This document shows, piece by piece, positions 12,881 through 56,458 of a DNA stretch of 64,000 nucleotides (position 1 is its first letter; each line of letters begins with the position of its first letter). Origin of the DNA: Hydrogenobacter thermophilus TK-6 (lineage in GTDB: Bacteria; Aquificota; Aquificia; Aquificales; Aquificaceae); NCBI RefSeq assembly GCF_000010785.1, contig NC_013799.1, positions 806,001 through 870,000 of the forward strand, given 5' to 3'. Position numbers and translations under genes: made by a program. The notes beneath the pieces were generated by a model. That model worked only from the letters and a program-made list of their open reading frames with translations. It searched no databases and was not told the DNA's origin.

Positions 12881-14467
12881 CTAACCATATTTATCCACCT
12901 GTAGGTATTTGGAAAGGGAACTCAGCTTAAGGTATGAGGTTTCAACGAGTTTGAGGTATGAGAGAAGCTGAGCGGGTGGAAGGATTGAAAGAAGAGCTCT
13001 CCCTTTCAGGTGAACGGTTCCCTGCGGGAACGGAAATCTCGCAGGACTATCCTCACCCCTATAGGGCTCGGATTTTGAACCGCTCACCCACTCTAAAGCT
13101 CTAATACCAATATTTACACTCGCATTGTAATCCCTGTCAAAACTCCCACACTCACATTCAAACTCAAGCCCCTTAGCCCTCCCTCTCCTCCCGCACACAT
13201 GACAAACCTGCGACGTGTAAAATGCAGGAACTTCTATAACCCTTATCCCTCTCCTCTGAGCTTTGTGTGCAAGTCTCTCTGAAAACTTCGAGTAAAACCA
13301 TGTCTCAAAGTATCTCCTCATCTTAGGATTCTTCCACCTCGGTGATGAAGAAAATTTAAGTGCCTCTATCGCTATTGCCTGACATCCATAGGCTCTTGCA
13401 TGCTCCACTACCAGATTGACAAATACCTCAAGAACCTGCTTCCTCAATTCTTTGAACTTTCTCCACCTTAACCTCTGCTCCGCATACAGGTGCCTGAGTC
13501 TCCCCTTCAGTTTCTCCCTGTGCTCCTCGCTCCCTGTAGAGTGTATCTGATCCGCTATGCGGTCTATCTTCCTCTCAAGGTTTGATATCTCCTTCAAAAG
13601 TCTCTCAAGCTTCTTTATCATCTTGCTCGCTCTGAAGAATATCGGTTTGGAATGTCCCTCTTTCGCAACTACAGTTCCAACTCCAAGTCTATTCTCCGAA
13701 GGAGACAGGTCTATTGCAAACATTCTATCCGCTTCCTTCTGAACCTCTACCTCAAGCTCAAGGGGAATAACAAGCTTGTAGATGGTGTATCCGCTCTTTA
13801 AGAACACTCTCTTTATAAGGGGAGAGCCTATCCCCTTAGCTCTGAAAATGTCCTTCTTGAGTCTATCGGGAATGAGCTTTTGAACCTTTATCCACCTCCA
13901 TCCCCTCCCATCGGGAACCTTTATCTCAAACTCTATAAACTTTCCATCTGTTTTGAGTTTCCTCATCTGTCCTCTACAAAGGGAGTCATCCGCTGAGGTT
14001 ATAACCACATTCCCCGAAAATGAGGGTCTTACAGCTCTTAGATAATCCTTTTCCACTTTTCCTCTTCTGAGTCCTTTCCTTACCTGTCTCTGAATATTCA
14101 AAACAAAGAGAGGAGAGGTTTTTAGTTCCTTTGCAAGGATGTTCTCGCTTATTATCGCTCTGCAGGGCTTTTCGAGTATGTATTCGTAAATCCTCTTCCT
14201 CTCTATCTGAGACCTTACTATCTGTCCCGAGAGTTCAAGAACATTTCTGTGGAACCTTGATGGAAGATGGGAGGGTCTCATAACTTCGCTCTTGAGAATT
14301 CCCACAGATGAACCTTTACCTTTTAGCTTCTCTATAGTTTCTTCATTCCACAGAGAGGAGAGGGTTCTGCGGACATTCCACTTGAATTCGCTAAATAATC
14401 TGTCCAGCTTCGGGTAGATATTCTGAGGGAGGGTAAGCTCGTAAGATACAACTACCCTATCCTTCAT
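12881..14467 (-). CDS. tnpB: RNA-guided endonuclease TnpB (IS607-associated)
   Basis: 528 residues. RuvC-type motifs are present: Asp in FAIDLSPSENRLG, Glu in AIAIEALKFSS and Asp in DRDYNASVNIG. The zinc-finger cysteines are in CHVCGRRGRAKGLEFECECG. TnpB proteins are ancestors of Cas12 and cut DNA using a guide RNA (omegaRNA) made from the 3' end of the gene. A tail of about 80 residues beyond the last Asp is longer than usual and may be read through the RNA region. It overlaps tnpA by 11 bases. All three acidic residues are kept, so it may be active. Confidence 0.92.
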   Translation of the reverse strand: MKDRVVVSYELTLPQNIYPKLDRLFSEFKWNVRRTLSSLWNEETIEKLKGKGSSVGILKSEVMRPSHLPSRFHRNVLELSGQIVRSQIERKRIYEYILEKPCRAIISENILAKELKTSPLFVLNIQRQVRKGLRRGKVEKDYLRAVRPSFSGNVVITSADDSLCRGQMRKLKTDGKFIEFEIKVPDGRGWRWIKVQKLIPDRLKKDIFRAKGIGSPLIKRVFLKSGYTIYKLVIPLELEVEVQKEADRMFAIDLSPSENRLGVGTVVAKEGHSKPIFFRASKMIKKLERLLKEISNLERKIDRIADQIHSTGSEEHREKLKGRLRHLYAEQRLRWRKFKELRKQVLEVFVNLVVEHARAYGCQAIAIEALKFSSSPRWKNPKMRRYFETWFYSKFSERLAHKAQRRGIRVIEVPAFYTSQVCHVCGRRGRAKGLEFECECGSFDRDYNASVNIGIRALEWVSGSKSEPYRGEDSPARFPFPQGTVHLKGRALLSILPPAQLLSYLKLVETSYLKLSSLSKYLQVDKYG

Positions 14468-15056
14468 CCCTCAGTTCCTTTACCATCTTCTTAATTTTAT
14501 TGGCTCTCATTCCGTAGAGCTTTCCTGCAAAGGATGTGAGAATTGCTATCAGGTCTTCCACAAGTTCCTTCTCAGGTTCTTTGAACTCTTTTCCGTTTAC
14601 CGCTATAATTTCAACACCGAGAGCTTTGAAAAACTCCACGAAGTAATCAAATCCAAACCTTGTAAGTCTATCGGGATAGGTTATGTAAATAGCCCTTATC
14701 TTCCTGAGCCGAGCGAGTTCTATGAGCTTGAGTAATCCTTTTCTTCCCTCCTTTATCCCACTTGCTATGTCTTTTACTTCATACACCTTTTGGTGCTTTC
14801 CTTCCACACACTTTCTCAAATACTCTAACTGTCTTTCGAGATCTTTTTTCTGATCCCTTGAGGAAACCCTTGCATATATGGCAACCGCATCAGCTCTTTT
14901 TTCTCCAAGGAGTTCCATAAGCTGTTCATAAGAGTATCTTCTTTCCTTTCCCACTCTGTAGGGTTTGAGTTTTCCCTCCCTTTCCCATCTCCTTAAAGTG
15001 CTGACAGATACGCCAAGTACTCTTGATGCTTCCCCTATCCGCAAACGTCTGTTCAT
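14457..15056 (-). CDS. tnpA: IS607-type serine recombinase TnpA
   Basis: About 199 residues starting MNRRLRIGEASRVLGVSVST. There is an N-terminal MerR-like helix-turn-helix (residues 5-50), then a small serine-resolvase domain with the catalytic Ser in AIYARVSSRDQK and conserved YPDRLTRFGFD. It catalyses excision and insertion of the element. The frame extends upstream to 15140, but homology starts here, and the promoter just upstream leaves no leader. Confidence 0.92.
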   Translation of the reverse strand: MNRRLRIGEASRVLGVSVSTLRRWEREGKLKPYRVGKERRYSYEQLMELLGEKRADAVAIYARVSSRDQKKDLERQLEYLRKCVEGKHQKVYEVKDIASGIKEGRKGLLKLIELARLRKIRAIYITYPDRLTRFGFDYFVEFFKALGVEIIAVNGKEFKEPEKELVEDLIAILTSFAGKLYGMRANKIKKMVKELRDEG

Positions 15057-15063
15057 GTAGATA

Positions 15064-15092
15064 AATATATAGTGGTATGGGTAGAAAATCAA
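15064..15092 (-). promoter_or_regulatory. Leaderless promoter of the IS607 element
   Basis: TTGATT (15092-15087) and TATATT (15069-15064), 17 bases apart on the minus strand. The tnpA ATG at 15056 is seven bases past the -10 box and has no Shine-Dalgarno sequence, which implies a leaderless transcript. Confidence 0.55.
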
Positions 15093-15169
15093 GGTTCTGT
15101 TAAAGACCCTCCAGAAAAGGCAACATAAGGTTTTTTGCAAGTTTGCAGGGCTTTTTTAACAAAATTTAG

Positions 15170-46228: not shown

Positions 46229-49200
46229 ATGGAACTCACGAGGCGAAGCTTTTTAAAGTTTTCGGGAGCTTCAATAGGCGCTGGGCTTGTGGGGGGTCTT
46301 GGCTTTGACCTCAAGCCTGCCTACGCAAGAGTTAGAGAGCTTAAGATAGCCAAGGCTAAGGTTGCTAAAAGTGTTTGCACTTACTGTTCCGTATCCTGCG
46401 GAGTTCTTGTATACAGTTTGACAGATGGTGCTATGAATGTAAAGCCAAGAGTTATACATATAGAGGGTGATCCAGATGACCCTGTAAACAGAGGTACTCT
46501 TTGTCCTAAAGGCGCAACCCTTAAAGACTTTGTAAACTCACCTCAAAGGATCACCAAACCTCTCTACAGAGCACCCGGAGCTAAAGAGTGGAAGGAGATA
46601 AGCTGGGATGAGGCGTTAAATAGGATAGCCAGGCTCATAAAGGACACAAGAGACAGAACCTTTATAGAAAAGGATCAGGAGGGAAGGACGGTAAACAGAT
46701 GTGAGAGCATCTTCTGGCTCATGGGATGCACTATGGAAAATGAGCCAGGCTATCTTGGGGTGAAGCTGGGAAGACTGCTGGGTTTAGTGGCGCTGGAAAC
46801 TCAGGCACGAGTGTGACACGCTCCAACGGTGGCCAGTTTGGCCGCAAGATTCGGAAGAGGAGCCATGACCAACTCCTGGAATGACATAAAGAACGCGGAC
46901 CTGGTTTTTGTTATGGGGGGAAATCCTGCGGAAAACCATCCGTGTGGCTTCAAGTGGGCAATTAAGGCAAGGCAAGAGAGAGGAGCAAAGATAATAAGCG
47001 TAGATGTGAGATATCACAGAACCGCAGCTGTAGCCGATATGTTCGTGCAGATAAGACCGGGTTCTGACATAGCCTTTATGGGTGGTCTTATAAACTACGT
47101 GATACAGAACAAAAAGTATGATGAGGAGTATATAAAGCACTTTACCAACGCTACCTACATAGTAAAAGATACCTACAATTTTGACCCTACAGTGGGGCTC
47201 TTCTCCGGTTATGACCCCGAAAAGAGGAAGTACGATACAAAGCTGTGGGACTATGAGAGGGACGAAAAGGGAATGGTCAAGAAGGATATGACCATGGAGC
47301 ATCCCAGATGTGTCTTCCAGCTTCTGAAACAGTTCTACTCCAGGTACACTCCGGAAGTGGTGGAAAAGATAACAGGAGTTCCCAAAGAGAAGTTCCTTGA
47401 AGTGGCAAAGCTCGTAGCGGAAACTGGAGTGCCAGACAAATCTATGACCCATCTTTACGCCCTTGGCTGGACGCACCATTCCTGGGGTACTCAGGTGATA
47501 GGTTCTATGGCCATACTCCAGCTCCTACTTGGGAACATAGGCGTGCCAGGCGGTGGTGTAAATGCCCTCAGAGGACACGCTAACATACAGGGAATGACGG
47601 ACCTTGCGGGAGAGGGCAGGTTCTTGCACGGCTACCTCAAGCCTCCTACTCCCGAACAGCAAACCCTAAAAGATTACATAGAAGCGAACACTCCAAAACC
47701 GTGGGACGAGGGTTCCATGAATTACTGGTCTAACTACTCTAAGTTCATAGTTTCTCTGCTTAAGTCCTACTTTGGAGACAACGCAACACCCGAAAACGAT
47801 TTCTGCTACTCTTACCTTCCCAAACAGGACAAGGTCATCTCGTGGGATGAGGCCGTGGACAGGATGTTCAGAGGCAAGATGGAAGGCGTGGTATCCATAG
47901 GTGTTAACTTGCTGGCAAACACCCCCAACGCCAAAAAGACCGCGGTTGCTCTTTCTAATCTCAAGTGGATGGTAGTGATGGACCCCTTTGAAACGGAAAT
48001 GGCTGCCTTCTGGCAGCATGTGGAAAATCCAGAAAGCATAAAAACGGAAGTGTTCTTGCTTCCATCCGCCGTCTTTGCGGAAAAGGAGGGAACCAAAACC
48101 AACAGCGCCAGAACCCTAAAGTGGCAGTATAAGGCTGTAGAGCCGCCCGGAGAGGCAAAGGAAGAACTCTGGTTTATTGGAAACCTTTACATGAAGCTCA
48201 AAGAGCTGTATCAAAAGGAGGGTGGTGCTTTCCCAGACCCTATACTGAAGGCAAGGTGGCCATTCCAGAACCCATACCATCCTACCGCGGAGGAGGTCTT
48301 GGCGCTTGAAATAAATGGTGTTGCTCTGGATGACATAAAGGATGACAAGGGCAATGTGGTGGTCAAAAAAGGTGAGAGACTGCCAGGCTTTATATACTTA
48401 AAGGATGATGGCACTACCTCCTGCGGTATGTGGCTCTACTGCGGAGTGTTTCCTCAATCGGGCAACAGAGCAAAGTCAGCAGACCTAACGGATCCTTCAG
48501 GATTGGGCATCTACCCCAACTACGGCTACTCATGGCCTGCCAACAGGAGAATACTTTACAACCGCGCTTCCGCAGGACCAGACGGAAATCCCAGGTCCCC
48601 AAAGAAAAAGCTCGTGTGGTGGAATGCCAAAGAGCAAAAGTGGGTAGGTTATGATGTGCCCGACATAAAACCGGACTTACCTCCTGAGTATGGACCTTTC
48701 ATCATGCTACCTGAAGGAAGAGGGAGGCTATACTCTCAGTTTCTGGTGGATGGTCCATTCCCAGAACATTATGAACCTTACGAATCGCCCGTTGAGAATG
48801 TGCTACATCCCAAAACACCCCATAACCCGGTGGTGAAGGTCTACAGGTCAGATCTAGACCTTCTTGGAACGCCCGACAAGTTTCCATATGCTGCAACCAC
48901 CTACAGAGTTACGGAACACTTCCACTACTGGACAAAACATATTTATGGCACCTCCGTGCTGTTCCAAAAGATGTTCGTGGAGATACCCGAAGAGCTTGCC
49001 AAAGAGCTGGGTATAAAGGAGGGAGAGAAGGTGAGAATAGTAACAGCGAGAGGCTCGGCGGAAGCCTATGCTCTTCCCACAAAAAGGATAAAGCCTCTTA
49101 CTGTAAACGGTAAGAAGGTCTATACCGTCGGAATACCCATTCACTGGGGCTTTGAGGGAATAGTTAGGGGTTCGCTGGCAAACCTTACTACCCCCTTTGT

Positions 49201-49270
49201 ATGGGACCCCAACTCCCAAACGCCGGAGTTTAAGGGCTTTTTGTGCAGGATAGAAAAGGTGAAAACTTAG
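46229..49270 (+). CDS. fdoG: Selenocysteine-containing formate dehydrogenase, catalytic subunit
   Basis: About 1013 residues when the in-frame TGA at 46814-46816 is read as selenocysteine, matching FdnG/FdoG length. Tat signal (TRRSFLKFSGASIGAGLVGG). A 4Fe-4S site is in CTYCSVSCG near residue 50. The Sec context is QARV-U-HAPTVASLAARFG, as in E. coli FdoG, followed by molybdopterin domains. It oxidises formate to CO2 outside the cytoplasmic membrane. The two open frames (46229-46816 and 46829-49270) are in the same phase, so this is recoding, not a frameshift. A SECIS-like hairpin follows and selC lies in the same operon. Confidence 0.96.
46814..46850 (+). promoter_or_regulatory. SECIS element after the selenocysteine UGA
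   Basis: TGA at 46814. Twelve bases later GGTGGCC pairs with GGCCGC around the loop AGTTT (46829-46845), giving a 6-bp stem. Bacterial SECIS hairpins lie at this distance and bind SelB. The loop differs from the E. coli GGUCU loop. Confidence 0.7.
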
Positions 49271-49282
49271 AGGAGGTTAATC

Positions 49283-50167
49283 ATGAGCACGGTTACCACA
49301 GAAGGAACGGTAGGACTTGGGTTAAAGAGGGTATCCGCTTCCAAACTTCCTGACCAGAATGTAAAGAGAGCGGATACCTTAGCCATACTGGTGGATATAT
49401 CAAGCTGTATAGGCTGTAAAGGTTGTGAGGCAGCTTGTACTCAGTGGCACGACCTTAAACCCCCACTATTTAAAGAGGGTCAGGACTTTGTAGGTTATCA
49501 GTCTTACCCTGACCTGATGCCAAATCTGTTTATGATAATGAAGTTCAAAGAGGGAGAAACAGATAAGGGTATAACTTGGTTTATCACCAAGTACCAGTGT
49601 ATGCACTGCGGAGACCCTGGCTGTCTAAAAGCCTGTCCTTCCCCCGGAGCTGTAATTCAGTACGAAAACGGTATAGTGGACTTTGACCACTCCAAGTGCA
49701 TAGGCTGTAAGTTCTGCCTCTCTGGCTGTCCTTTTGATATTCCGAGGTATGATGCCAACAACAAGCCTTGGAAGTGCAACTTCTGCGTAGACAGGGTTTC
49801 CGCCGGACTTGAACCTGCCTGCGTAAAAACCTGTCCCACCAACGCGCTTCACTTTGGTGTAAAGAGCGAAATGCTAATGAGAGCCAACAAGATAGTAGAA
49901 GGGTTAAAGAAGAGGGGCTTTGAGAAGGCTACTGTCTATGATCCTCCCGGTGTTGGTGGTACGGGATACATATATGTTCTGCCGCACGGAGACAAGCCTG
50001 AGATGTACGGACTTCCCAAAGAGGCGAGCATATCACCATGGATAAGCCTTTGGAAGGGTCCTTTGAAGGTCTTTGGTGCTGTGGTTCTTTGGGGTACATT
50101 GCTGGGAGCTTTCTTACAGCTCATACTCTTTGGACCCATAAAGGTAGGTAAGAAAAAGGAGGGCTAA
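49283..50167 (+). CDS. fdoH: Formate dehydrogenase iron-sulfur subunit
   Basis: 294 residues. Four Cys clusters (CIGCKGCEAAC, CMHCGDPGCLKAC, CIGCKFCLSGC, and CNFCVDR with CVKTC) bind four 4Fe-4S centres. One C-terminal transmembrane helix (about residues 255-285) anchors it. It passes electrons from FdoG to the cytochrome b subunit. Starts 12 bases after fdoG. Confidence 0.96.
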   Translation: MSTVTTEGTVGLGLKRVSASKLPDQNVKRADTLAILVDISSCIGCKGCEAACTQWHDLKPPLFKEGQDFVGYQSYPDLMPNLFMIMKFKEGETDKGITWFITKYQCMHCGDPGCLKACPSPGAVIQYENGIVDFDHSKCIGCKFCLSGCPFDIPRYDANNKPWKCNFCVDRVSAGLEPACVKTCPTNALHFGVKSEMLMRANKIVEGLKKRGFEKATVYDPPGVGGTGYIYVLPHGDKPEMYGLPKEASISPWISLWKGPLKVFGAVVLWGTLLGAFLQLILFGPIKVGKKKEG

Positions 50168-50169
50168 CC

Positions 50170-50802
50170 ATGGAAGAGACAAAAAACCTTGAAGAGTTGG
50201 AGATAGAGAGGTTTAGCAGGTTTGACAGAGTGGTGCACTGGGTGGTTGCCATAACCTTCATTTACCTCTTCCTCTCCGGGCTTGGCATATACTCACCCAA
50301 GTTCGCCTGGCTTCTCCCTGTGCTGGGAGGTCTTGATTTTGCAAGGTGGCTACACCCTTGGGCTGGTCTGGTATTCTCCGTGGGAGTTTTGCTTATGTTC
50401 CTAAAGTGGTCAAAGGACTTTCTCCTCACATCCGATGATATGGCTTGGCTCAAAAGCGTTAAGCATTACATAAAAGGAGAGGAGGAAAAACTGCCGGAGG
50501 TGGGCAAGTACAACGCTGGGCAGAAAGTCTTTGGCTGGTTGGTGTTTTTAGGATGCCTTGTCTTTTTGATAACTGGCATACTCATGTGGTTCCCCGGAAA
50601 CTTTCCCATAACGCTTACGAGGATATCCATAGTGCTTCATGACCTTGCCTTTATACTGGTAGGTGCCGGGTTCATAGTCCATGTCTACATGGGAACGGTG
50701 GGAGTTCCTGGCTCCCTCTCGGGTATGATAACTGGCAAAGTTTCTGCTCTTTGGGCTATGAGGCATCACCCTAAGTGGTTCAGGGAGGTGGTGAGGAGGT
50801 GA
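50170..50802 (+). CDS. fdoI: Formate dehydrogenase cytochrome b556 subunit
   Basis: 210 residues with four transmembrane helices. Haem-ligand histidines are visible in FDRVVHWVVAI, WLHPWAGLVFS and in the later helices (SIVLHDLAFILV, GFIVHVYMG). It hands electrons to quinone. It follows fdoH by two bases, and its end overlaps the frame before sodC. Confidence 0.94.
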   Translation: MEETKNLEELEIERFSRFDRVVHWVVAITFIYLFLSGLGIYSPKFAWLLPVLGGLDFARWLHPWAGLVFSVGVLLMFLKWSKDFLLTSDDMAWLKSVKHYIKGEEEKLPEVGKYNAGQKVFGWLVFLGCLVFLITGILMWFPGNFPITLTRISIVLHDLAFILVGAGFIVHVYMGTVGVPGSLSGMITGKVSALWAMRHHPKWFREVVRR

Positions 50803-50807
50803 GTGTC

Positions 50808-51332
50808 ATGGGGGGGCTTAGCTGTTTGAGCAGTGGGATGGCGCTGTGCGCCGTCCTCTTCTCTTTTTCAATAGCACAGGAACTCAAAGCACACGCAGAC
50901 ATAGTGAACCAGAAGGGCGAGAAGATAGGCAAAGCTGAGCTTATACAGACCAACAGCGGAGTTCTCATAAAGCTTGAAGCCTCAAATCTACCACCCAACG
51001 CTGAGCTTGCCTTTCACATCCATGAGCTTGGCAAGTGCGACCCTCCTGACTTTATGTCCGCAAAGGGACACTTCAACCCCTTTAAGAAGAAGCACGGACT
51101 TTTAAACCCCGATGGACCTCATGCAGGAGACATGCCCAATGTATTTACCGACGCTAACGGAAATCTTAAAGTGCATGTGCTTAACACCTTTGTAACGCTG
51201 GAGCGTGGAAAGGAAAACAGCCTACTAAAAGATGGAGGTACGGCGCTTATGATACATCATCACAGGGATGACTACAGAACGGACCCGGCTGGTGATGCGG
51301 GAGCAAGGATAGCCTGCGGAGTTATAAAGTGA
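50808..51332 (+). CDS. sodC: Periplasmic Cu/Zn superoxide dismutase
   Basis: 174 residues from ATG 50808, placed after GAGGAGGTG. Signal peptide ends at about residue 26. Metal ligands: His in LAFHIHELGKC, His in AKGHFNP, His/Asp in GPHAGDMPN, and His in MIHHHRDDY; the disulfide Cys pair is present. It removes superoxide outside the membrane. Placed inside the formate dehydrogenase operon, it may protect the oxygen-sensitive Fe-S/Sec enzyme. Confidence 0.93.
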   Translation: MGGLSCLSSGMALCAVLFSFSIAQELKAHADIVNQKGEKIGKAELIQTNSGVLIKLEASNLPPNAELAFHIHELGKCDPPDFMSAKGHFNPFKKKHGLLNPDGPHAGDMPNVFTDANGNLKVHVLNTFVTLERGKENSLLKDGGTALMIHHHRDDYRTDPAGDAGARIACGVIK

Positions 51333-52090
51333 GCCTGATAAAGTTAAGGGAAAGGGAGTATCATCTGGAGAGGTTGATAGTGCTGAAAAAGAGGCATCCC
51401 GAAGTTTCCCATGTGCTGGACTTTCTCCACAGTACCATGAGCTTCCAGAAGGAAGTTTACGAAAGATTGAAGGACTGCGATTGGAAAGGTCATATAAAGA
51501 AAATCTACCAGCTGCTTGATATATGCCGGGACTATGGAAGTCCGCTCATTCAGGAAAAGGTGCAGGAACTTAGGAAGCTTGATAAAGAAGCACTTATCCG
51601 TAAGGTGGATAGCTTTCTGAAGGATAAGGATGCACCTGATGAAGAGAGGTTTATCTTTCTTACTTTTTTAAACCCCTTCTTTTCCAAGGGTTCCGAAGAG
51701 ATGGATATTAAGAAAGATCAATGGCTTAAAAACAGGTGTCCCGTGTGTGGCTTCAAACCTTGCGTTTCTTACATCGCGGATGGTGAGGATGTAGAAGGTG
51801 CAAGATACTTAGTTTGTGTCCTTTGCAACACCGAGTGGCTCTATAACAGAACGCAGTGTGTGAGATGTGGCAACAACGAGGATAACACCCTTGAGTATTA
51901 CTACGACCAGGGAGAAAGTTATGCCATTCTGCAGGTTTGCAAGAAGTGTGATACCTACATGAAGGTCATAGACATGAGAAAGGATGGTCTTGCTGTGCCA
52001 CACCTTGATGATATAGCCACCCTCTCCCTTGACCTTTGGGCAAAAGAGAGGGGATTTTTAAAGTTTGAGAGAAATATCATAGGCTTATGA
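51329..52090 (+). CDS. fdhE: Formate dehydrogenase accessory protein FdhE
   Basis: 253 residues, starting at GTG 51329 that overlaps the sodC TGA. Two zinc/iron rubredoxin-like CxxC pairs: CPVCGFKPC, CVLCNTEW, CVRCGNNED and CKKCDTYM. FdhE helps assemble or activate the periplasmic formate dehydrogenase. Position in the operon agrees. Confidence 0.93.
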   Translation: MSLIKLREREYHLERLIVLKKRHPEVSHVLDFLHSTMSFQKEVYERLKDCDWKGHIKKIYQLLDICRDYGSPLIQEKVQELRKLDKEALIRKVDSFLKDKDAPDEERFIFLTFLNPFFSKGSEEMDIKKDQWLKNRCPVCGFKPCVSYIADGEDVEGARYLVCVLCNTEWLYNRTQCVRCGNNEDNTLEYYYDQGESYAILQVCKKCDTYMKVIDMRKDGLAVPHLDDIATLSLDLWAKERGFLKFERNIIGL

Positions 52091-52611
52091 TAAGCAGGCG
52101 TGATGTCTTAAAGTTTTTTCTAAGCTCCTCCCTTTTTTCATGGGCTAAAAAGATGGAAGACATAGTGATAAAAGGGTGTGTGGTAAAGAGAGACAGGCTC
52201 TATCGTGTAAACGAAGATAGGATGCTCTTTCAGTGGGTTAAAGAGGAGGGAAGGGGTGTTTACTCGGTAGGCTTTATGTCCATACTGGCATCCTTGGCTT
52301 ACCCCCTTTACTCCATAAAGATAAAGCCTGTTGGGACAGTGCTTGAGTACGATGATAACCTGGCTGTAATTGAAGCGGGCAAGAGAGTCTCTACATTTCC
52401 CACACCCATAGGTGGGAAAGTGGTGGAGATAAACGCTTCTCTTGAGAAAGACCCATCACCGATAGTGAGCAGTCCCTACGAGACTTGGATAGTTAAAATA
52501 GCATCCTCGGACGTTGAAAGTTTAAAAAGGCTAAAGACAGCTGACGAGATAGCAAAGGTCGTAGAATCTATAATAATCAGAGAAGGCATAGAGTGTCTTC
52601 CCAAGAGGTAG
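52087..52611 (+). CDS. GcvH-like lipoyl-domain protein with a twin-arginine-type leader
   Basis: 174 residues. The body matches the glycine-cleavage H fold. The lipoyl-Lys region is EAGKRVSTFPTPIGGKVVEI; the Lys lies eight residues before the Pro of the hairpin, as in GcvH. The N-terminus, MISRRDVLKFFLSSSLFSWA, looks like a short Tat leader, which true GcvH lacks. No glycine cleavage genes are near. It overlaps fdhE by four bases, and its TAG stop shares its last base with selC. It could be an exported or membrane-bound lipoyl carrier linked to formate dehydrogenase, but that is inference. Confidence 0.75.
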   Translation: MISRRDVLKFFLSSSLFSWAKKMEDIVIKGCVVKRDRLYRVNEDRMLFQWVKEEGRGVYSVGFMSILASLAYPLYSIKIKPVGTVLEYDDNLAVIEAGKRVSTFPTPIGGKVVEINASLEKDPSPIVSSPYETWIVKIASSDVESLKRLKTADEIAKVVESIIIREGIECLPKR

Positions 52612-52710
52612 GGAGAGTTTGGCTGGCTGGTGCCGCCCCGGGACTTCAAATCCCGTGGGGGGTCGCTACAGGCGACCTCCGGAGGGTTCGATTCCCTTAC
52701 TCTCCCGCCA
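52611..52710 (+). tRNA. selC: tRNA-Sec (selC, anticodon TCA)
   Basis: 100 bases. The long acceptor GGGAGAGT pairs with ACTCTCCC (8 bp), the mark of tRNA-Sec. The anticodon stem-loop GGGACTTCAAATCCC has TCA. The extra arm is long (GGTCGC/GCGACC), and CCA is encoded at 52708-52710. It decodes the UGA of fdoG in the same operon. Confidence 0.96.
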
Positions 52711-52786: not shown

Positions 52787-54292
52787 ATGGAGGTGCTTGA
52801 TTATAGAGCATACAGACCCAGAGCTTTTACAAAAGAGGAGAGGTCTAAGACAACCATCCTCTTTGGGGGACTCACCTGGAAGCACGAAAGGCTCATACAA
52901 GCCTCTCTTGAAAACATGGGATACAGAGCAAAGCCCCTGCCGGAGATAAGGAGGGTGGACCTGGACATGGGTAAAGAGTTTATAGATGTGGGTGCCTGCT
53001 GTCCTACCACCTTTACCGCAGGAAACCTTGCCAGAGCGCTCATGCAGATAGAAAAGAGTGAAGGAAGGGAACGGCTCAAGGATAACTATGTGTTTGTTAC
53101 CATAGGAGCCTGTGGACCATGCAGGTTTGGTCAGTATCATGAGTCTTACGAGCGCGTGCTTGAGGGATTAAACCTCAGAGATTTTAGGCTGTTTCTTCTT
53201 GACCTTCTTCAGATGGAGCAGTCGGTGGAGGGTGGAGGTCTTGAAATAAGCATGCCTCTGACCTTAGGACTCGTTTATGCCATGTTCATAGGAGATCTCC
53301 TTACTGACATGGAGTACGCAACAAGACCCTACGAGGTTGAAAAGGGGAAAACAGATAGAGTACTGAGAGATAGCGTAGAGCTCATTTACGAAAAGCTAAG
53401 GAAAAGACCCATAAGAGGTAAAAAGCTTGGTTCTCTGCTGTGGCATTTAACTACTGACTACTTTACAAAGGCTTTGAAAGAAGTTAAAGAGCTGTGGGAT
53501 GAGATAGAGGTTGACAGACTTAGAGTGAAACCTACAGTGAAGATAACAGGTGAGTTCTGGCTTCAGACTCACGAAGGAGAGGGCAATTACAACATAAAGA
53601 GATGGTTGGAGCAGGAAGGCGCACAGGTGGTGCCTCCCCCCGTAGCTGTATGGATGGATTACCTTATAAACATGGAGCTGTTTAAATTGGAAGACAAGAG
53701 AGAATTTGTCAAAATGTACCCTCTGAAGAAAGCCATCATCTCTCTATTTGCCTGGCTTTACAGATACACCTACAACAGACTCAGAAATGCTCTTAACGAC
53801 ATTCCAAACCCTCTCCCAGACCAGAGAGCTTTAAAGGAACTTGCCAGACCTTACTTTTATTACAGACTCACCGGCGGTGAAGGACATATGCTCATAGGTA
53901 AGGCTCTTTATGCTTACAGAAACAAACATGCTCACATGATATGCGAGCTCTCACCTTACGGATGCCTTCCCAATACCATGTCCGTAGGTGCCATGGCAAA
54001 GGTGCTGGGGGATTATCCGGACCTGCTTTACGCTCCCATTGAGATAAAGGGTGATGCTGAAGTTCACGCTCTTTCAAGGTGTCAGATGATACTGACCGAG
54101 GCGAAAAGGAGGGCAAAGGAGGAGTTTGAAGAAGTGCTACAGAGGACAAAACTGAAAATTGAAGACATAAAAGAGTTTGAAGCTAAAAAACCCGAGATAA
54201 GAAGGGCTACTTACAGGATACCCCACTACGGATACGCAGGAACATCTGCCAACTATGTTATGCATGTAGCAAAGCTTATGGGAAGGGTTTGA
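52787..54292 (+). CDS. 2-hydroxyacyl-CoA dehydratase-like protein (HgdB/DUF2229 type)
   Basis: 501 residues. Cysteines likely to bind an Fe-S centre are in DVGACCPTTFTAGNL, TIGACGPCRFGQY and CELSPYGCLPN. This is the D-component family that works with BadF/HgdC activases. In many bacteria the same domains are fused in one giant protein. Here the partner activase is the next gene. The true substrate is unknown: these homologues in Aquificales are not assigned to a pathway I can name. Confidence 0.8.
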   Translation: MEVLDYRAYRPRAFTKEERSKTTILFGGLTWKHERLIQASLENMGYRAKPLPEIRRVDLDMGKEFIDVGACCPTTFTAGNLARALMQIEKSEGRERLKDNYVFVTIGACGPCRFGQYHESYERVLEGLNLRDFRLFLLDLLQMEQSVEGGGLEISMPLTLGLVYAMFIGDLLTDMEYATRPYEVEKGKTDRVLRDSVELIYEKLRKRPIRGKKLGSLLWHLTTDYFTKALKEVKELWDEIEVDRLRVKPTVKITGEFWLQTHEGEGNYNIKRWLEQEGAQVVPPPVAVWMDYLINMELFKLEDKREFVKMYPLKKAIISLFAWLYRYTYNRLRNALNDIPNPLPDQRALKELARPYFYYRLTGGEGHMLIGKALYAYRNKHAHMICELSPYGCLPNTMSVGAMAKVLGDYPDLLYAPIEIKGDAEVHALSRCQMILTEAKRRAKEEFEEVLQRTKLKIEDIKEFEAKKPEIRRATYRIPHYGYAGTSANYVMHVAKLMGRV

Positions 54293-54304
54293 GAGGCTAG
54301 TGCC

Positions 54305-56458
54305 ATGCTGTTGGGTATAGACATAGGGAGCACCACATGCAAGTATGTACTTGCGGATGATAGTGGCAAAATAATAGATAAAGCTTACGAAAGGCACAAC
54401 ACCAGGCAGGCGGAGAAGGTACTGGAGTTTCTTATAAAGCTTGAGGAATTATACGGGCTCAGAGCTGGAAGAGACAGGGTTTATCTAACAGGTTCGGGCG
54501 CAGGGCAGATAACCAAACTCATAGGCGGTAAGTTTATCCAGGAGGTGGTTGCTGTAAGCGTTGCAGTTGAAAGGCTCCATCCGCGCGTGAGGTTCGTAAG
54601 CGAAATAGGAGGGGAGGACATGAAGACCATCTTCATAAAGGAGGAGGGGGGAAAGAAAAGCAGGCAGGTGTATATGCAGAATGTGTGCGCAGGTGGTACT
54701 GGTACCTTCATAGAGAAGTCTGCAAGGAAGCTGGGAATTGACCAGCAAAAACTCTCCAGTATGGGATACAGAGGCTACACACTACACAGGATAAGCTCCA
54801 AGTGCGGTATATTTGCGGAAGCGGATGTCAACTCTTTGGTAAAGGCGGGGGTTCCAGTGGAGGAGATCATTGCCTCCCTGTTTGAGGCTGTGGTCTATCA
54901 GAACCTGTCCCAGCTCACAAAGGGAAACACACCCCTCCCCGAGGTGCTTCTCCTGGGAGGTCCAAACCTGTTTTTCAGAGGTCTTCAAGAGGCATGGAGG
55001 CACCACCTTAAAGAGCTCTGGAAAGTCAGAGGTGTAGGAGACTTTTCTGAAGAGGAGATGCAGAAGCTGGTTTATGTGCCGGAAAACTCCCTCTTTTATG
55101 CCAGTCTTGGGTGTATATACACCGCTATGGAAGAGGAGGAGGGAGGTGTTTATCAAGGAAGGGAGAAGTTAGAGTGGTGGGTAAAGGAAGGACAGTACGA
55201 GGAAAAGCTCAAAGAGGGCAAGAGAGGACTTGTAAGCTCGGAGGAGGAGCTTGAGGCTTTTATGAGGAAGTACTCGCATAGCGTAGGCAAAAGGATACAA
55301 CCCAAAAAAGTGCCGGAGGTGATAGTAGGCTGTGATTTTGGTTCCACAACGGCAAAAGCGGTTTGCATAACTCCCGAGAAGGAGCTGGTCTTTTCCTGCT
55401 ACACCATGAGCAAAGGAAACCCAATAGAGGATGCAAAGGAGATATTCAGGCAGATAAAGGAGTATCTTGGCAGTGGGAAAGTCCTTAGTCTTGGAATCAC
55501 GGGCTATGGTAAGGACCTGCTTAAAGATATCCTCGGAGCGGATGTTGCTATAGTGGAAACAGTTGCTCATGCTACCGCAGGACTGCATTTTTTCCCCGAT
55601 GCGGACTGTATATGCGATGTGGGTGGAGTAGATGTAAAGATCATGATACTCAGACAAGGCTCTGTGGTAGACTTTAGATTAAACTCCCAGTGCTCTTCGG
55701 GAAACGGCGCCTTTCTGCAGGGAGTGGCGGAGAGGTTTAACATACCACTTAGCCAGATAGCGGAAAGAGCCTTCTTGGCAAAGGCTATACCTAACTTCAC
55801 CATGGGCTGTGGAGTCTTCTTACAGAGCGATATAGTAAACCAGCAAAGAAAAGGCTGGCAGGCGGAGGAGATACTGGCGGGTCTGTGCTATGTTCTACCT
55901 CTAAATGTCTGGATATACGCAGGAAACATAAACAACCTGGCGCAGGTGGGTAGGAAGTTCATACTTCAGGGTGGGACGCACAGAAACCTTGCGGTGGTAA
56001 AGGCTCAGGTGGACTTTATAAAGTCCAGGGTCCCCGATGCGGAAGTTTATGTACACCCATACTCCGGTGAAGCTGGAGCTATAGGCGCAGCGCTGGTAGC
56101 TCTGGAACACTGGCGGAAGACTAAAAGCACAAGGTTCAGAGGTTTTCAAACCGTAGAGAATCTGGAGTATGTGGCTACCACATCAAAGGACACTGTTTGC
56201 CACTGGTGTCCCGTGAACTGTCAGAGGACCTTTATAGATGTTAAACTGCAGGAAGGCGAGGGAAGACCCTGGAGTAAAGTACCCCTTCCAAAAGGCTGGG
56301 TGAGGCTCATCGTAAACAACTCCTGCCCGAAGGGTCTTGTGGAGGATGAGAAGGAGCTAAGAGTTATAAAAGAGAGGATGGAAAAGGTGAAAAGCTCTTT
56401 TCCCAACATATCCGATTTTGTGAGAAAGGAAGCTTTCAGGAGGCTCACTCGTACCTAA
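54305..56458 (+). CDS. Tandem BadF/HgdC-type activase ATPase (two domains)
   Basis: 717 residues. Domain 1 (about 1-290) begins LLGIDIGSTTCKYVLA and has Cys in NVCAGGTGTF and SSKCGIFAEAD. Domain 2 (about 335-610) begins IVGCDFGSTTAKAVC and has Cys in NSQCSSGNGAF and TMGCGVFLQ. In HgdC such cysteines hold a 4Fe-4S bridging a dimer; here one chain could supply both halves. The tail adds CHWCPVNCQ and NSCPKG. It should use ATP to push a low-potential electron into the partner protein encoded just upstream. Confidence 0.85.
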   Translation: MLLGIDIGSTTCKYVLADDSGKIIDKAYERHNTRQAEKVLEFLIKLEELYGLRAGRDRVYLTGSGAGQITKLIGGKFIQEVVAVSVAVERLHPRVRFVSEIGGEDMKTIFIKEEGGKKSRQVYMQNVCAGGTGTFIEKSARKLGIDQQKLSSMGYRGYTLHRISSKCGIFAEADVNSLVKAGVPVEEIIASLFEAVVYQNLSQLTKGNTPLPEVLLLGGPNLFFRGLQEAWRHHLKELWKVRGVGDFSEEEMQKLVYVPENSLFYASLGCIYTAMEEEEGGVYQGREKLEWWVKEGQYEEKLKEGKRGLVSSEEELEAFMRKYSHSVGKRIQPKKVPEVIVGCDFGSTTAKAVCITPEKELVFSCYTMSKGNPIEDAKEIFRQIKEYLGSGKVLSLGITGYGKDLLKDILGADVAIVETVAHATAGLHFFPDADCICDVGGVDVKIMILRQGSVVDFRLNSQCSSGNGAFLQGVAERFNIPLSQIAERAFLAKAIPNFTMGCGVFLQSDIVNQQRKGWQAEEILAGLCYVLPLNVWIYAGNINNLAQVGRKFILQGGTHRNLAVVKAQVDFIKSRVPDAEVYVHPYSGEAGAIGAALVALEHWRKTKSTRFRGFQTVENLEYVATTSKDTVCHWCPVNCQRTFIDVKLQEGEGRPWSKVPLPKGWVRLIVNNSCPKGLVEDEKELRVIKERMEKVKSSFPNISDFVRKEAFRRLTRT

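Follow-up and report, generated by a model that had tools for sequence, protein, structure and literature searches.

The stretch of DNA analysed here (the window) comprises 64,000 nucleotides of the Hydrogenobacter thermophilus TK-6 genome. On its forward strand, at 52087–52611, lies a complete ORF of 174 codons that ends a fdoG-fdoH-fdoI-sodC-fdhE operon and is located between fdhE and selC (Table 1). This is the formate dehydrogenase (FDH) operon in which the initial annotation, made from the sequence alone, had placed the gene. The start ATG overlaps the fdhE stop codon as ATGA, an arrangement shared by 11 of the 12 loci that make up the window's subgroup. The product matched Pfam GCV_H with 107 bits (cut-off 22.2), and its scores with the NCBIfam GcvH models were below the cut-offs (73 versus 117 bits and 54.8 versus 115.85). 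We refer to the gene as LbpA-like for the reasons given below.

The AF2 model of the product (pLDDT 85) had the H-protein fold, and all significant PDB matches found by Foldseek were H-proteins or GcvH-like proteins, including 1onl (E=5.5e-11). The conserved lipoyl-lysine position claimed by the initial annotation was confirmed, as K99 (EAGKR in the window gene) was invariant in 23/23 orthologues; in the model it occupies the turn joining strands 91–97 and 100–105. Cys31 was present in all 23 orthologues and Cys170 was aligned in every one of them.

Table 1. Features of the fdo operon and of the LbpA-like gene (positions in the window).
Feature	Position	Strand	Basis or remark
fdoG, catalytic subunit with Tat leader	46229–49270	+	In-frame TGA (Sec) at 46814–46816
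fdoH, Fe-S beta subunit	49283–50167	+	TIGR01582, 442.6 bits
fdoI, cytochrome b subunit	50170–50802	+	TIGR01583, 247.8 bits
sodC, Cu/Zn superoxide dismutase	50775–51332	+	Pfam Sod_Cu; optional, 14/23 loci
fdhE, formate dehydrogenase accessory protein	51329–52090	+	Pfam FdhE_central/FdhE_C; synteny 23/23
LbpA/GcvH-like gene, H-protein fold	52087–52611	+	174 aa; Pfam GCV_H; 23 orthologues
N-terminal twin-arginine leader MISRRDVLKFFLSSSLFSWAKK	52087–52152	+	RR in 23/23, varied codons, purifying selection, ATGA-coupled start
Invariant twin arginines R4-R5	52096–52101	+	23/23 orthologues
N-terminal Cys31, LbpA hallmark	52177–52179	+	Invariant; LbpA definition PMC6067878
Lipoyl-acceptor Lys99, E-[AS]-G-K-[RK]	52381–52383	+	Invariant in orthologues
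C-terminal Cys170, LbpA hallmark	52594–52596	+	Conserved; LbpA definition PMC6067878
selC, tRNA-Sec	52611–52710	+	ARAGORN; shares one base with the stop codon of the LbpA-like gene

The Sec codon TGA of fdoG occupied an identical position in 18 of the 19 other loci read. The nineteenth, L066 (G017:C50), has a TAG in frame at codon 79; this codon precedes the Sec position and reflects either a sequencing error or a decaying gene. Over fdoG-fdoH (46229–50167) the window is 91–97% identical to the congeners L041 and L042 and 81–87% identical to L040, and the genes downstream of fdoGH are about equally distant from all three; a recombination of fdoGH within the genus is probable from these identities.

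Several other features of the window were recorded. Beside selC in the genus, 52787–56458 holds a gene pair resembling the activator and component of 2-hydroxyacyl-CoA dehydratase, made up of a BcrAD_BadFG ATPase and a 501-aa protein without a Pfam or NCBIfam match. The region 15362–42301 contains mostly short genes, with terminase-, portal- and tail-like ORFs recognized by eye, and looks like a prophage or Mu-like element. A TnpB/serine-recombinase-like pair lies at 12881–15140.

Co-occurrence with FdoGHI in the Aquificaceae

A search of 112 Aquificales genomes yielded 23 full orthologues, all from Aquificaceae, with identities of 51–100%, below which there was a sharp fall to paralogues at 38% identity or less. 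No orthologue outside Aquificaceae was found among 136 Aquificota genomes. Matches in a plasmid search were just ordinary GcvH-like proteins of about 30% identity, and a scan of 84,980 species, limited to close relatives, gave two loci, both from Aquificaceae. The family may be wider than the Aquificota genomes covered by the profile search.

All 23 orthologues were located directly 3′ of fdhE in a fdoGHI(-sodC)-fdhE operon, and selC followed directly in 22 of these loci, the exception being G039. In that genome the locus L044 (G039:C18) has no adjoining selC after 14361, though its fdoG retains the TGA Sec codon, and the selC of G039 must be located elsewhere in the genome. We had expected sodC to be an obligate partner; this was rejected, since it was present in the operon at 14 of the 23 loci and missing from nine, with the LbpA-like gene missing from none.

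The initial annotation had called for a survey of the fdo operons of Aquificales. When FdoH was searched separately at E≤1e-70 across the 112 genomes, the genomes encoding it were exactly the 23 with a full LbpA-like orthologue, and no others. The nominal chance of this perfect co-occurrence is 2e-24, a value that assumes independent genomes, which they are not. Co-occurrence and co-loss span five genera, and in G048 and G041, which have no FdoH, a 5′-truncated copy consisting of only the 3′ half is followed by selC, indicating that loss of the LbpA-like gene accompanied that of the operon. These two remnants, each in front of a tRNA-Sec gene in a genome without fdoGHI, are located at L067:9553–9940 and L068:3842–4167. 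In pairwise comparisons, identity of the LbpA-like protein correlated with FdoH identity (r=0.92) and with FdhE identity (r=0.90). The gene is thus linked exclusively to the Sec formate dehydrogenase, and among the factors tested FdoGHI was the only one on which its presence depended.

Relationship to LbpA and GcvH

Lipoate is known from the 2-oxoacid dehydrogenases and glycine cleavage and, since 2018, also from sHdr sulfur oxidation. LbpA proteins are defined by a lipoyl lysine together with two cysteines, one near each end, which GcvH lacks, and LbpA has been proposed as a sulfur carrier for the Hdr-like complex (Cao et al. 2018, PMC6067878). In a tree of 66 sequences (LG+C20+F+G4) the fdo-linked proteins formed one clade (100/100) on a long stem branch of 1.92 changes per column, and this clade grouped with LbpA1 (97/97) and apart from GcvH. 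An AU test of a placement on the GcvH side gave p=0.18, which is no formal rejection, and descent from LbpA1 is therefore likely and not proven. In the segment from Tyr to the conserved Trp, compared by eye, the fdo-linked family and LbpA1 were four residues longer than LbpA2. The initial annotation had hinted at LbpA, and both the two diagnostic cysteines and the grouping with LbpA1 instead of GcvH bear this out. Its remark that glycine-cleavage genes are absent nearby was extended to all 23 loci, where none was found near the LbpA-like gene; the genuine gcvH of the window's genome is located at C1:1398404, beside gcvPA.

All 23 orthologue genomes also carry LbpA1. In the window's genome, LbpA1 and LbpA2 are encoded elsewhere, as members of the shdr cluster, which also contains LipS1 and a LipS2-like gene. 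Across the 23 loci the LbpA-like gene was always in the fdo operon and never in or next to the shdr cluster; hence we class it as a paralogous LbpA offshoot and not as the sHdr LbpA. The window's genome encodes lipoate-ligase-fold genes besides lipS1/lipS2, so that a route to lipoylation exists. The lipoyl-site context GKW.GP of LbpA is altered to GKR..FP in the fdo-linked protein, which makes recognition by the LbpA ligase uncertain.

A further LbpA2-like paralogue was observed outside the shdr cluster (L062:8746–9192; C1:1171.7 kb in the window's own genome). In several genera it is preceded by a class II aldolase gene, and in the window's genome it converges on selA-selB; at six related loci of other genomes, the short flanking sequences contained no selA match.

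The Aquifex aeolicus gcvH1 annotation

In A. aeolicus, aq_1052 (gcvH1, O67151) is listed with 16.2 kDa under glycine synthesis, fdoI is aq_1049, and aq_1052 was undetected in soluble-fraction proteomics (PMC10052474). The orthologue L057 of G001 lies directly after fdoGHI-sodC-fdhE and before selC. Read from an upstream GTG, its frame encodes 175 aa (19.9 kDa) and includes both a leader, reading RRTFLE, and the first Cys; a start at an internal TTG gives 143 aa and 16.18 kDa, matching the listed 16.2 kDa. Gene order and this mass match make aq_1052 very probably identical to L057. The annotated start of aq_1052 probably removes the leader and the first hallmark Cys and, judged from the reading frame, appears to be a misannotation. 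The present analysis corrects this annotation of gcvH1.

A conserved twin-arginine leader

The initial annotation had described a leader of the Tat type at the N-terminus and had left its conservation open. We found that R4 and R5 were invariant in 23/23 orthologues, encoded by three and five different codons, respectively, and the surrounding residues were variable yet kept within a hydrophobic pattern. Between close pairs the leader was under purifying selection, with pS far above pN (for example, 0.63 versus 0.12). The ATGA coupling, the varied Arg codons and the excess of pS rule out a chance or non-coding origin, and the N-terminus MISRRDVLKFFLSSSLFSWAKK is, on these sequence comparisons, real coding sequence. 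The motif RR-x-[FLVI]-[LIF] was found in all 23 orthologues, with a Lys four positions past the second Arg in 14 of them; it reads mostly RRRxF[LI]K in one subgroup and mostly SRRx[LV]L in the other. Conservation of the leader was thus confirmed, and neither of the two observations that the initial annotation had named as contrary to its reading, an unconserved leader or an association with glycine-cleavage genes in other genomes, was made.

Among 73 non-overlapping ORFs of the window, RR-x-hydrophobic-hydrophobic occurred together with an uncharged run of 11 or more residues in FdoG and the LbpA-like ORF only. The window's genome encodes TatC. The leader, made up of the N-terminal 20–25 residues, was peculiar to the fdo-linked paralogue; GcvH, LbpA1, LbpA2 and the orphan LbpA2-like protein start at the domain. 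Residue 23 is a Met in 17 of the 23 orthologues and falls where LbpA proteins without a leader naturally begin; this Met may be a relic or may serve as an alternative start. We also considered a lipoprotein with 'GC' as the lipobox and rejected it, as the Cys has charged residues before it and also occurs in the leaderless LbpA paralogues.

The uncharged or hydrophobic stretch after RR was short (8–13 residues) and no conserved A-x-A cleavage site was found among the 23 orthologues, so that export of the protein may not occur. The invariance of both arginines favours recognition by TatC over binding by a chaperone, which would act through the hydrophobic segment.

A proposed role in formate dehydrogenase maturation

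FDH activity requires a sulfido ligand on the cofactor, and FdhE is restricted to periplasmic FDHs (PMC10609526). Of the roles considered, one at the active-site sulfur or selenium of FDH fits best with the ancestor proposed to carry sulfur, this sulfido need, the neighbours fdhE and selC and the dependence on FdoGHI. Likewise, the LbpA ancestry and the place beside fdhE and selC favour sulfur/selenium chemistry of the enzyme over the C1 chemistry raised by the initial annotation. The export-type leader acquired by this LbpA relative and its restriction to genomes with the Sec formate dehydrogenase suggest that in the heat-loving Aquificaceae it is an unstudied helper in building or protecting that enzyme. 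Our literature search found no account of its function.

We propose that a diverged LbpA-family protein, related to LbpA1, has become a dedicated partner of the Sec formate dehydrogenase FdoGHI in Aquificaceae. Its N-terminus would serve as a Tat-type targeting peptide, in which case it is most likely the folded, already modified protein that is given to the Tat translocon, either alone or alongside FdoGH. Acting at the membrane or the periplasmic face, the dihydrolipoyl arm and the two cysteines would act as a carrier, of the dithiol or sulfane-sulfur type, through which FdoG acquires or regains its Mo/W sulfido ligand and its selenol. The protein would have no part in glycine or C1 transfer. 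The family, fold, operon, exclusive co-occurrence and co-loss, the translated leader under selection and the invariance of K99, C31 and C170 follow directly from the comparisons above; lipoylation, export and the maturation or repair role are inferred. This reading, of a Tat-targeted, LbpA-derived lipoyl/dithiol carrier that matures or repairs the sulfur/selenium active site of FdoGHI, is put forward tentatively, at close to but somewhat short of an even chance. The narrower claim, that the carrier folds and receives its lipoyl group in the cytoplasm before Tat exports it to mature or protect the Sec/Mo(W) site outside the membrane, is plausible at about one chance in three. We know of no lipoyl protein outside the cytoplasm, and a literature search for extracytoplasmic lipoyl proteins found none. 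This, the altered lipoyl-site context and the failure of soluble-fraction proteomics to detect aq_1052 weigh against the proposed reading.

The short hydrophobic stretch and the missing conserved cleavage site are compatible with a leader that mimics a Tat signal. The protein would then be a cytoplasmic maturation factor that docks on FdhE, FdoG or TatC and delivers sulfur or electrons to FdoG before translocation. The overlap of its start codon with fdhE, which suggests translational coupling, points the same way, as do the leaderless LbpA relatives, which are partners of a cytoplasmic system (PMC6067878), and the chaperones of related Mo enzymes, which bind the Tat leader or its remnant (PMC10609526). 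However, the presence of both arginines in 23/23 orthologues is a better fit to TatC than to chaperone binding through a hydrophobic segment, and we regard a mimic as rather unlikely, at little more than one chance in four. Alternatively, the protein could be an extracytoplasmic redox or sulfur carrier that has no role in FDH assembly and links the oxidation of formate with either sulfur compounds or an antioxidant system (SodC). Its LbpA ancestry, the presence of sodC at 14 of the 23 loci and the nature of the hosts, sulfur oxidisers with LbpA1, are in keeping with this. We consider it improbable, as sodC is missing from nine loci and the LbpA-like gene from none, and across the 23 loci the operon lacks a conserved cytochrome or reductase partner.

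Co-transcription by itself is no proof of function, and a duplicate merely carried along in the operon, with no part in FDH function, would fit the fast divergence seen in the stem branch (1.92). The strict co-occurrence and co-loss in five genera, together with purifying selection and invariant functional residues, make such a passenger very improbable. Least credible, and barely so, is a GcvH of the reductive glycine pathway fed by formate from FdoGHI. It would agree with the gcvH1 annotation and glycine synthesis listing of A. aeolicus (PMC10052474) and was not strictly rejected by the AU test (p=0.18), but the two LbpA cysteines are foreign to GcvH, the indel is that of LbpA1, the scores are under the GcvH cut-offs and the grouping with LbpA1 has 97/97 support. 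Moreover, a true gcvH is encoded next to gcvPA in the genome, and an RR leader would be senseless for a cytosolic C1 carrier.

If the proposed maturation or repair role in FdoGHI is correct, an FDH-dedicated lineage of lipoate carriers with an export-type leader would represent a further role of lipoate and, should export hold as well, possibly the first case of lipoate as a cofactor outside the cytoplasm. It would also bear on how the Mo/W-sulfido and selenol ligands of Sec-FDHs are kept up in oxygen-respiring hosts.

Comparison with known systems

FdhD is the known sulfurtransferase for FDH, and fdhD is also present in the genome (C1:1532154). A second sulfur carrier is therefore not obviously needed, and the LbpA-like protein would supplement the known sulfuration route, not replace it. 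It resembles FdhD and FdhE in its genetic link to a periplasmic FDH and in a possible role with active-site sulfur; their folds are unrelated to its own, and FdhD uses loop cysteines, not lipoate. With GcvH it shares the fold and the lipoyl lysine, and differs in the LbpA cysteines, the leader, the genomic context and the scores below the GcvH cut-offs. A title cited in PMC11376134 reports a role of lipoyl-H-protein in [FeFe]-hydrogenase maturation, and maturation roles of such carriers thus have a precedent. It also resembles LbpA1 and LbpA2 of the sHdr system, which have the H-protein fold, the lipoyl Lys and the N- and C-terminal Cys in common with the LbpA-like protein (PMC6067878). In contrast to these, it carries a twin-arginine leader and E[AS]GK[RK] in place of the LbpA ESGKW.GP, is encoded in the fdo operon instead of the shdr cluster, and forms a long separate branch (1.92).
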